64,000 nucleotides of DNA, taken from Thermococcus henrietii (lineage in GTDB: Archaea > Methanobacteriota_B > Thermococci > Thermococcales > Thermococcaceae). The stretch is taken from the NCBI RefSeq assembly GCF_900198835.1, contig NZ_LT900021.1:124001-188000 (forward strand), written 5' to 3'. Position numbers and translations under genes: made by a program. A model generated the notes under the pieces. That model saw only the letters and a program-made list of their open reading frames with translations. It made no database searches and was not told the DNA's origin. Positions 5,753 to 54,253 of the stretch are shown one piece after another. Position 1 is the stretch's first letter, and each line of letters opens with the position of its first letter.

Positions 5753-5830
5753 GGGCCGGTAGCTCAGCCTGGTACGAGCGCCGCCCTCGCAAGGCGGAGG
5801 CCGCGGGTTCAAATCCCGCCCGGTCCACCA
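5753..5830 (+). tRNA. tRNA-Ala (anticodon CGC)
   Basis: Full cloverleaf: acceptor GGGCCGG/CCGGTCC with discriminator A, D-stem GCTC/GAGC, anticodon stem CCGCC/GGCGG with loop CTCGCAA (anticodon CGC), T-arm GCGGG TTCAAAT CCCGC, and an encoded CCA at 5828-5830. A TATA-like stretch (AAAACTTTTTAAAAC, ~5711-5725) lies about 30 nt upstream, and a T5 run at 5837-5841 can end transcription. Confidence 0.97.
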
Positions 5831-9288: not shown

Positions 9289-9366
9289 GGCCGGGGTGGT
9301 GTAGCCTGGTCAGCACAGGGGACTGTGGATCCCCTAGCCCGGGTTCAAATCCCGGCCCCGGCCCCA
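9289..9366 (+). tRNA. tRNA-His (anticodon GTG)
   Basis: Cloverleaf with the extra G-1 at 9289 pairing to discriminator C at 9363, acceptor GCCGGGG/CCCCGGC, anticodon loop ACTGTGGAT (GTG), T-arm CCGGG TTCAAAT CCCGG, and encoded CCA at 9364-9366. A TATA-like AACTTTATAAAG lies at 9251-9262, roughly 35 nt upstream. Confidence 0.97.
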
Positions 9367-17469: not shown

Positions 17470-17471
17470 CC

Positions 17472-17530
17472 TCAGACTGGAACGGCTTCCTCATCAACTC
17501 GGTAGCTACCCTGTTGCCATCATCGGCTGT
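17472..17530 (-). ncRNA. Probable C/D box sRNA
   Basis: Minus strand: C box ATGATGG (17523-17517), 14-nt spacer, D' CCGA (17502-17499), C' TTGATGA (17497-17491), 15-nt spacer, D CTGA (17475-17472). The last C-box base and D' deviate from consensus but not at the sheared G.A pair positions of the C/D kink. A TATA box (AGCTTTATAA, 17560-17551) lies ~25 nt before the predicted 5' end near 17530. Spacers are 2-3 nt longer than the usual 12. The RNA lies between convergent USP and DUF99 genes. Confidence 0.5.
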
Positions 17531-41253: not shown

Positions 41254-41317
41254 TTGGGAACGTTTCGTTCAAGAAAGCCTTTAAGATTTTTCCTCCCAAC
41301 AAATAACGGTGATTCCC

Positions 41318-41665
41318 ATGGAGAACACAGAGGTTGAGGTCAAGCTTAAGGAGATTGAGGAGCTCCTCGACAGGCTCGGGAAGGAGCACCCAAAGGAGAT
41401 TGCCGCGTTCTCAAGGTTCCTCCGCGAGACCCTTGACAACAAGGCCCTTACAACCAGGGAAAAAGAGCTCATAGCTCTCGCCCTCGGTATTGCCCAGGGC
41501 TGTGAGTGGTGCATCTACCTCCACACCCAGAAGGCTTTGGAGGCGGGAGCGAAGCCGGAGGAGCTCATCGAGGCCGGCCTCGTCGCGGTGCTGATGGCCG
41601 GAGGACCGGCGTTAATGCACCTCATACCGCTCATGAAGGCAATAGAGAAGTTCAAGAAGGAGTGA
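41318..41665 (+). CDS. Carboxymuconolactone decarboxylase/AhpD-like protein
   Basis: 115-aa AhpD-fold protein with the redox CxxC motif GCEWCIYLHTQKALEAGAKPEELIEA, a member of the CMD family often acting as small peroxidase/alkylhydroperoxidase helpers. ATG 41318 follows GGTGATTCCC; the GTG at 41309 is inside the Shine-Dalgarno. The structured RNA candidate lies 57 nt after its stop. Confidence 0.85.
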   Translation: MENTEVEVKLKEIEELLDRLGKEHPKEIAAFSRFLRETLDNKALTTREKELIALALGIAQGCEWCIYLHTQKALEAGAKPEELIEAGLVAVLMAGGPALMHLIPLMKAIEKFKKE

Positions 41666-41695
41666 TTACCCAACCAGCCTTCAAGCCATCGAAAC

Positions 41696-41707
41696 CTTTA
41701 AATATTC
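41696..41707 (+). promoter_or_regulatory. Promoter of the structured RNA
   Basis: CTTTAAATATTC is a good archaeal TATA box; the expected start ~25 nt downstream falls at ~41722-41727, exactly where the structured RNA sequence begins. Confidence 0.55.
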
Positions 41708-41721
41708 TTTCGTTTAGTAAG

Positions 41722-41995
41722 AGCCTCGGAGGAACTACCGTAAAACAACCCCGAGGAGACGAGGGGTTTCATGTTACCTTTCACCATCGGAGGATTGACG
41801 CCGTAAGGCGTCCTTTCAATGACTGCCCGTTGTGGCAGTCAAAAACTCTAAGTGGTGGCCTCAGAAACCATAACCCCAATCCGCTTTGCGGTGAGGGGTA
41901 ATGGGCCGAAGACCCGGCCCGCGGGCTGAACCGAAAGGGGCAACCTAAGTAGGCGATGGGCCCGCAAACCGAACCGCCAACCGGCGGAGAGGAGG
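41722..41995 (+). ncRNA. Unidentified structured non-coding RNA (~270 nt)
   Basis: A gene-free 330-nt gap between the AhpD-like and NAC genes. The segment after the TATA box contains seven strong stems: AACCCC/GGGGTT (41747-41752 with 41763-41768), CACCA/TGGTG (41782-41786 with 41853-41857) enclosing GACGCC-GTAA-GGCGTC (41797-41812) and GACTGCC/GGCAGTC (41821-41840), then CCATAACCCC/GGGGTAATGG (41868-41904, inner CCGC-TTT-GCGG), GGGCCG/CGGCCC (41903-41920), GCGGGC/GCCCGC (41921-41965) with a CCGAAAGG tetraloop region, and CCGCC-AACC-GGCGG (41974-41987). The last part CCTAAG...GATGG resembles a tetraloop receptor. Universal RNase P P4 motifs and the SRP asymmetric-loop motif are not found. Confidence 0.6.
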
Positions 41996-42331
41996 TCAGT
42001 CCCCGCTCAGCTTGAGGATTGCCTCCGCTATGTCCCCTTTCGTTTCTTTCAGCGCTTTAAGCGCGGTTTCCCTGTCAACGCCGGCCTGCTCCATGACGAG
42101 CTCGATGTCCTCCTCTGGAATCTCTATGACCTCCCTTACTTCCTCGCTCCCGGGGACAATCTGGTAGGTCTTCTCGCCCTGGACGACCATGACGGTAACG
42201 ACGGGGTCCTTAAGGACGATTTCTTTGCCCTCAAGCTTAAGAACGACCTCCTTAACGCCCTCCATCTCCTCCATCTTTATTCCGAACTGGCGCATGAGCT
42301 TCTTCATCTGCCTGGGGTTCATTCCCATCAT
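41996..42331 (-). CDS. nac: Nascent polypeptide-associated complex protein
   Basis: 111-aa archaeal NAC, homologous to alpha-NAC, which binds nascent chains at the ribosome exit. NAC domain (IKMEEMEGVKEVVLKLEGKEIVLKDPVVTVMVVQGEKTYQIV) and a C-terminal UBA-like helix set (DIELVMEQAGVDRETALKALKETKGDIAEAILKLSG). ATG 42331 follows GGTGGTTGAG. The stop abuts the 3' end of the structured RNA. Confidence 0.95.
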   Translation of the reverse strand: MMGMNPRQMKKLMRQFGIKMEEMEGVKEVVLKLEGKEIVLKDPVVTVMVVQGEKTYQIVPGSEEVREVIEIPEEDIELVMEQAGVDRETALKALKETKGDIAEAILKLSGD

Positions 42332-42426
42332 CTCAACCACCGGCTAAGGTTCGTTGCGACTCTTAAAAAGGTTGGCAGGGCAACGTTTAATTAGAAGTTC
42401 CACCAAGGAAACGCCGGCGAGTTAAG

Positions 42427-53704: not shown

Positions 53705-53758
53705 GCGTCAGGGGCCGATTAGTTCATCACGGCTCAGCCACCTACCCTCACATCATCC
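53705..53758 (-). ncRNA. C/D box guide sRNA
   Basis: Minus strand: C box ATGATGT (53756-53750), 12-nt guide GAGGGTAGGTGG, D' CTGA (53737-53734), 3-nt linker, C' GTGATGA (53730-53724), 12-nt guide ACTAATCGGCCC, D CTGA (53711-53708), then a T5 run (53702-53698 region). Both spacers are exactly 12 nt, the spacing rule of Pyrococcus sRNAs. It overlaps the last codon and stop of the signal peptidase gene (53753-53755). Target bases would be the fifth from each D box. Confidence 0.88.
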
Positions 53759-54253
53759 GCCGAGGCCGAGGGCGTCGCGAATCCAGAGCGGTATTAGGCC
53801 AATCTTGGGTATGACGAACTCGGCCTTGGCCTCAACGGCGTAGGCGGGAGCACAACCAGCTATGTAGCCGTTCGGCAACTGAACCTCGAGCATTCCCTCC
53901 GGAGTCGGATACGGGGGGTCCGGAACGGGGTTGTTGTCGCCCCAGGTTACGAAGCACTTCTCAGGCTTCCCGTTGATTTTAACCGTGTAAATGTAGCGGA
54001 CGCGGTGGATTATCGGGTACTCGTAGCCGGGACGCTTGTAGACTATCACGTCGCCGACCTTTATCTGGTCGGGGTTCGTTACACCCTTGAGGAGAACCAC
54101 GTCTCCCCTGTAAAAGACGGGTTCCATCGAGCCGCTGACGACAATGACGAGGGGAGAGCTTGTGTGAAGGGCCACTTTAAGGCCCGCCTGGATTCCAAAG
54201 ACGACCAAGATTGCCACCAAAAACCAAGCTACTTCCTTCTTCCACTCCTCCAT
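53753..54253 (-). CDS. Type I signal peptidase
   Basis: 166-aa SipW-like archaeal signal peptidase that removes signal peptides outside the membrane. One N-terminal TM helix (residues ~8-27), catalytic Ser in VSGSMEPVFYRGDVVLL near 40, His in PIIHRVRYIY near 83 (replacing the bacterial Lys), and Asp in WGDNNPVPDPPYP near 105. A weak C-terminal hydrophobic patch (IGLIPLWIRDALGL) is present. ATG 54253 with GGAGGCCTTGAA upstream overlaps DUF531 by 25 nt. The stop lies inside the C/D sRNA C box. Confidence 0.92.
   Translation of the reverse strand: MEEWKKEVAWFLVAILVVFGIQAGLKVALHTSSPLVIVVSGSMEPVFYRGDVVLLKGVTNPDQIKVGDVIVYKRPGYEYPIIHRVRYIYTVKINGKPEKCFVTWGDNNPVPDPPYPTPEGMLEVQLPNGYIAGCAPAYAVEAKAEFVIPKIGLIPLWIRDALGLGG

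Follow-up and report, generated by a model that had tools for sequence, protein, structure and literature searches.

Between the genes for an AhpD-like protein and for NAC, the window (the whole 64,000-nucleotide stretch of Thermococcus henrietii DNA that was analysed) carries a 330-bp insertion at 41670–41999, as seen by comparing the junction with that of relatives. The two genes lie 336 bp apart in the window; the closest relatives have 6 bp at this place. The empty site in these relatives reads GATTAC|TCCCCGCTCAG (longer form GAGTGATTAC|TCCCCGCTCAG) and the 330 bp of the window sit exactly at the bar, directly after TTAC and with no target-site duplication relative to the empty site. Elements of the IS200/IS605 family insert 3′ of a short motif without target duplication, and TTAC is the target of IS608. 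The insertion 41670–41999 therefore has the placement of a non-autonomous IS200/IS605-family element. It is recent; it was absent at this junction from 29 of the 29 relatives examined and present in the T. henrietii window only. Orthologues of the AhpD-like gene are found in 43 of the 50 genomes of the genus. The right end of the element (41996–42001) supplies NAC with its stop codon, with a change from TAA to TGA and of the last residue from Glu to Asp as compared to the relatives. The features of the locus are as follows.

41318–41665, + strand: gene for the AhpD-like protein of 115 aa, ending with the stop codon TGA (41663–41665) directly at the insertion site.
41666–41669, + strand: target site TTAC, derived from the host and likewise seen at the uninterrupted junction of the closest relatives; it is the predicted target-adjacent motif (TAM) of TnpB.
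41670–41999, + strand: whole inserted element, 330 bp, tnpB-less, of IS200/IS605 type, delimited by the gap against the closest relatives.
41670–41689, + strand: shortened left end (LE) without the LE hairpin (TTTTCTTTTGAAAGCCTCGCCCTTTAGGGCGGGGATGCA), from comparison with other copies.
41690–41704, + strand: BRE/TATA promoter CGAAACC-TTTAAATA; predicted RNA start at about 41722–41728.
41717–41852, + strand: 5′ structured domain of five hairpins, specific to the tnpB-less (solo) elements and located at the place of tnpB (model R1, 117.6 bits).
41853–41970, + strand: scaffold core of omega-RNA (TnpB guide RNA) type, six helices (model R2, 126.6 bits, E 8.6e-36).
41971–41999, + strand: right end (RE), short form without the terminal hairpin, ending in GGAGGTCAG, from comparison with other copies.
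42000–42019, + strand: TCCCCGCTCAGCTTGAGGAT, the predicted guide; this host DNA runs antisense to NAC at the 3′ end of the gene and is placed relative to the RE as in known omega RNAs.
41996–42340, − strand: gene for NAC, for which the element provides the stop codon TGA (TCA at 41996–41998).

An initial annotation had proposed an unannotated structured RNA at 41722–41995, and a structured stretch does lie there, although the element is larger and its last bases form the stop of NAC. The 274-nt strand folds at −116 kcal/mol as compared to −95.3 ± 5.1 kcal/mol for its shuffles (z −4.08; 0 of 200 shuffles as good), and the region of strong fold is 41716–41999. Two hairpins are perfect, namely GACGCC-GTAA-GGCGTC (41797–41812) and GACTGCC..GGCAGTC (41821–41840); the stem CCCC..CCGC-TTT-GCGG..GGGG and the GC-rich 3′ stems are also present. 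The helices covary in dozens of relatives, in copies that are located at other loci. As to the GAAA-type loop of the initial annotation, the tetraloop that is conserved is of GNRA type (GCAA/GUAA/GCGA) and caps the innermost hairpin of the core. The receptor-like element CCTAAG did not hold up: of the aligned copies, only that of the window has it, with CGGGAG in the majority of relatives, and an 11-nt tetraloop receptor was discarded for this lack of conservation. The promoter-like TATA box, on the other hand, was rightly recognised and corresponds to the BRE/TATA sequence at 41690–41704; a strict pattern, GAAACC(N)TTTnAA, precedes the core in 68 of 111 copies.

A search of 41300–42400 against Rfam on both strands gave no family at threshold and chance-level hits only. 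This agrees with the earlier reading that the RNA is neither RNase P RNA nor SRP RNA, as the window copy has no threshold hit to either, SRP RNA has no match in the Rfam search and the single match to RF00373 (186 bits) lies elsewhere in the genome (G000:C1:431645–431966). Two tRNAs (5753–5827 and 9290–9363, both + strand) and the C/D box RNAs sR22 (17470–17527, − strand) and sR36 (53706–53760, − strand) of the window are ordinary.

Relatives of the element were sought in 94 Thermococcaceae genomes, and 30 copies were aligned to build the covariance models R1 (5′ domain, window 41717–41852) and R2 (3′ core, 41853–41970). Matches by blastn were obtained in 56 of the 94 genomes, often several per genome and in unrelated places. 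R1 gave 209 matches in 54 of the 94, with up to 20 in one genome, and no match outside the Thermococcaceae among the phylum genomes searched (54 of 115 positive, all in the family), while R2 has matches in 71 of the 94. Of 80 further copies, 79 have the core behind the 5′ domain; almost all of the 80 lie outside the set that built R1. One solo copy is located at G023:1474378–1474600. The restriction to Thermococcales suggested earlier stands in so far as the complete unit was found here only in Thermococcaceae; it is, however, neither a free-standing class nor a conserved locus. Homologues had been expected between the same two genes, but none of the 29 relatives has the RNA there and the homologues sit at other loci.

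Genome G062 contains one R1 and one R2 match and no other scaffold copy, and some genomes with a solo element, this one for example, may be without a cognate TnpB. The pattern of the scaffold core recurs exactly on a contig labelled as an Archaeoglobales MAG (L255, JAAOZI010000003.1), through horizontal spread or mis-binning. In the region of G008:C1:977989 (L261), a decayed copy of the element has close behind it a repeat resembling sRk48/52 of P. abyssi; two different solo guide-RNA-like elements appear to adjoin here.

Subterminal hairpins at both the LE and the RE are present in most relatives (the LE hairpin in 85 of 111 copies) and both are absent from the window copy. In the window copy (L002) as well as in L007, L009, L162/L191, L168 and L180, the LE hairpin is missing, yet TTAC abuts the truncation and the internal positions differ. 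Such abutment of TTAC on varied left truncations points to a mechanism by which these deletions recur, or else to the use of alternative left ends. Over the family, a strict window test detects TTAC or a close variant (T[TGC]AC) before the left end of 58 of 85 copies, as compared to 5 of 84 control windows. A second solo copy of the T. henrietii genome (L162) is common to G024 (L191), apparently at the same site, and some solo insertions are therefore older. Retrotransposition, considered because some copies are 5′-truncated, was dismissed since the insertions include the promoter, which would not be transcribed.

In the further copies, two-sided changes are seen at 22 of 31 pairs of the 5′ domain (80 copies; 250 cells as compared to 91 expected by shuffling) and at 16 of 27 pairs of the 3′ core, in alignments (A5 and A6) whose fitting to the covariance models inflates the pairing. 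Sliding the pair partners abolishes the covariation signal of the 5′ domain. At the core pairs G·U is in clear excess over A·C (152 versus 28), which is to be expected if it is the + strand RNA that folds. The excess is weaker in the 5′ domain (125 versus 93), whose putative folding as + strand RNA is less firmly shown.

The 3′ half of the element is homologous to the 3′ ends of tnpB genes. The C-terminal domain of TnpB (PF07282) occurs at six loci of the T. henrietii genome, five of them above the cut-off. The tnpB elements L033, L034 and L035 of this genome have the same right end as the solo elements, and two of them (L033 and L034) share the left end as well; among tnpB elements of the relatives, L057 and L058 carry both solo ends and L060 and L061 the right end. 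Most full-length tnpB elements with the solo right end and 3′ scaffold also carry the solo left end. R2 matches the 3′ ends of eight tnpB loci (E 6e-15 to 1e-10), and when solo and tnpB scaffolds are taken jointly 15 of 27 pairs have two-sided changes (score 0.409 as compared to 0.127 shuffled). The two kinds of element have in common only about 68 nt of the left end and about 147 nt of the right end. Between these ends, in the place of tnpB, solo elements carry the promoter and the five-hairpin domain of ~130 nt. We do not regard this domain as a piece of tnpB, as blastn gives no match to it at the equivalent place of tnpB elements and R1 has weak hits to four tnpB right ends (16–23 bits), mostly generic hairpins; a more remote kinship, for example through a diverged duplication of the right end, is conceivable and not claimed.

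The cognate TnpBs contain OrfB_IS605 and Cas12f1-like_TNB domains. Motif reading by eye finds the RuvC-I Asp (GIDLG) and the RuvC-III NAD motif, with a Gly at the position of the RuvC-II Glu (VGYPKG). Nuclease activity is therefore not assured for TnpBs that are without the canonical RuvC-II glutamate. The TnpBs of L033, L034, L035, L057, L058 and L061, with VGYPKG at RuvC-II, carry close to their zinc ribbon the motif V(N/D)EAFTSK, whose Glu is possibly a relocated catalytic residue, or the nuclease may be inactive. Derived or rearranged TnpB clades, which the cognate TnpBs resemble in RuvC-II, have been described (PMC10278001). A TnpA-like frame with a HUH-type motif (..DHVHVF..) lies upstream in L061, so the parent element was probably an IS605-type transposon. 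TnpA (Y1 transposase) was detected in 25 of the 94 related genomes and not in that of T. henrietii, an absence that bears on present mobility and not on descent.

The right end marks an exact boundary. It was located in 106 copies. Of these, 104 finish with GAGGTCAG, the uniform family end being GGAGGAGGTCAG, and conservation over the 106 amounts to about 1.9 bits of information for the final right-end base and to about 0 for positions +1 to +20. In known omega RNAs, the scaffold stops at the right end and the flanking DNA follows as guide (PMC8612924, PMC10278001). The predicted guide of the window copy starts with TCCCCGCTCAGCTTGAGG, and its first 18 nt match perfectly only their own site in the genome. 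A second target was not accepted, as the best other site (one mismatch, at 1150264) and two sites with two mismatches are without TTAC. The predicted guide matches the restored empty site TTAC|TCCCCGCTCAG of the closest relatives, where TTAC would be the TAM.

The archaeal RNA HgcC (RF00062), of Pyrococcus furiosus and T. kodakarensis, shares with the solo elements the 3′ half of the scaffold and the right end GUUGGAACCCUCGCCCUUCAGGGCGGGGAGGAGGUCAG. Its model reproduces the solo right end with hardly a letter changed (GUUGGAACCC.CGCCCUU.AGGGCG.GGAGGAGGUCAG); behind its end GGAGGAGGUCAG come 13 positions of weak conservation, at the place expected of a guide. Solo relatives score 28–38 bits against RF00062 (L007 38.2, L003 36.4, L162 35.8; E about 1e-5), below the cut-off, and the tnpB element L034 is the only one to reach the gathering score of 50 bits, with 50.0 bits. 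The sense-overlapping haloarchaeal TnpB RNA sot0042 (RF02656) matches as well (40.3 bits in L061). The window copy gives no match to HgcC even at E 10, and it probably escapes both of these Rfam models through the deleted right-end hairpin. The solo elements are thus related to HgcC without being filed as members of RF00062, from which they differ by a promoter that belongs to the element and by a 5′ domain of 130 nt that the model does not cover; the window copy differs further by the missing right-end hairpin. HgcC RNAs of T. kodakarensis are transcribed, inside and outside transposase genes, with two outside (PMC4247193).

Other known systems were compared. In the reRNA/omega RNA of ISDra2 (PMC8612924, PMC10278001) and in sot0042, as in the solo family, the scaffold overlaps the 3′ end of tnpB in full elements; in reRNA/omega RNA it likewise ends at the transposon right end with host DNA next as guide, and the target adjoins the TnpA site, TTGAT for ISDra2 and TTAC for the solo elements. 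The solo RNA differs in arising from a tnpB-less element with its own promoter and an extra 5′ domain, and its use of a guide is predicted. To our knowledge, no characterised omega RNA has such an extra 5′ domain. Ends-only IS605 derivatives, or PATEs (Haloquadratum, PMC3119063; Halanaerobium, PMC7290912), are similarly short and tnpB-less with the ends kept, the Halanaerobium element of about 271 nt retaining the RE together with the final 58 nt of tnpB (PMC7290912). In contrast to PATEs, the interior of solo elements is a conserved, promoter-bearing, covarying RNA, with up to 20 copies in one genome. The P. abyssi RNAs sRk48/sRk52 and sRkB/sRkC are also repetitive, promoter-bearing ncRNAs related to the 3′ ends of OrfB (TnpB); they have been seen on Northern blots, and sRk52, sRkB and sRkC bind L7Ae (PMC3124441). 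They are not identical with the solo RNA, since neither R1 nor R2 matches the loci of sRk52, sRk48, sRkB and sRkC (L158–L161) and the sequence families are separate. They give the impression of additional families of TnpB guide RNA elements that lack tnpB, with no relation to the present one.

We consider it likely, with a probability of about 0.75, that the RNA is an omega-RNA-type transcript (a TnpB guide RNA, HgcC-like) of a non-autonomous, tnpB-less IS200/IS605-family element located 3′ of TTAC. The promoter of the element would give rise to an RNA composed of the five-hairpin 5′ domain and a 3′ TnpB-binding scaffold, and transcription would cross the right end into host DNA, yielding a guide which matches the joined empty site beside TTAC. 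TnpB of a related full element, of which the T. henrietii genome has three, would load and use the solo RNA in trans; together they would cut chromosomes without the element, and repair from an element-bearing sister would restore it, so that the element re-homes. It would move as a non-autonomous passenger by means of the TnpA of another element. The window copy is probably immobile now because both end hairpins are lost and no TnpA is detectable in the genome; although probably stranded, it may still make RNA.

The proposal of the initial annotation, a class of structured RNA that would be new and free-standing in Thermococcales, has in its favour the strong fold and the lack of an Rfam hit at threshold for the window copy. 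The element is, however, mobile and dispersed, and its 3′ half shares homology with the 3′ ends of tnpB and, where relatives are intact, with HgcC and sot0042. This refutes the strong form of the proposal and leaves the remainder highly improbable. A passive non-autonomous element (PATE/MITE), the DNA ends of which serve TnpA in trans while the internal RNA is a functionless relic, would agree with the conserved ends, with the existence of ‘ends-only’ IS200/IS605 PATEs (PMC7290912), and with a window copy that has neither end hairpin in a genome where no TnpA was found. We hold this unlikely, as a relic interior should decay because TnpA needs only the ends, whereas the promoter is kept, G·U is favoured over A·C at the core pairs and the helices covary in held-out copies (at the 22 of 31 and 16 of 27 pairs).

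Two further readings grant the RNA a function other than guiding cleavage of empty sites. As a decoy or parasite, its scaffold and 5′ domain would titrate the TnpB of full elements without guided cleavage, which suits the large number of solo copies (209 matches) and a domain not found in tnpB elements; an exact scaffold/guide boundary in 104 of 106 copies would be needless for a decoy, even if transposition alone could also keep the RE, and we think this quite unlikely. Less probable still is an exapted RNA that regulates host genes in the manner of a TldR guide, either with a TnpB-like protein or alone as an antisense RNA of NAC. It does point into NAC in antisense, a cognate TnpB without the canonical RuvC-II Glu could bind without cutting, and the L162/L191 insertion is common to G000 and G024 and hence has been kept for some time. 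Against this, the AhpD–NAC insertion is found in the T. henrietii genome only, the guide sequence varies at random from copy to copy (information near 0) and there is no second TTAC-flanked guide target among the best genome matches.

We propose tentatively, as a possibility somewhat short of even, that the solo elements are guide-only mobile elements in which a promoter and a conserved ~130-nt domain replace tnpB, with the omega RNA loading in trans or outcompeting the RNAs of other elements. What is new is the solo interior, that is the promoter and the ~130-nt covarying domain, and the link of HgcC to TnpB guides, the scaffold itself being of the known HgcC kind. No function for the archaeal RNA family HgcC was stated in the literature that we searched; its model contains an IS605/TnpB right end, scaffold and likely guide positions, which gives it a testable role as a TnpB guide RNA. 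If the proposal is true, a solo element maintains itself by borrowing the RNA-guided nuclease of another element, and the 5′ domain is a new functional module of omega RNAs. The family itself shows guide RNAs that spread without a nuclease gene, in about 200 copies and with an added covarying domain, and it thereby becomes testable, in the genetically tractable Thermococcus, whether an omega RNA can act in trans with a TnpB encoded by another element.
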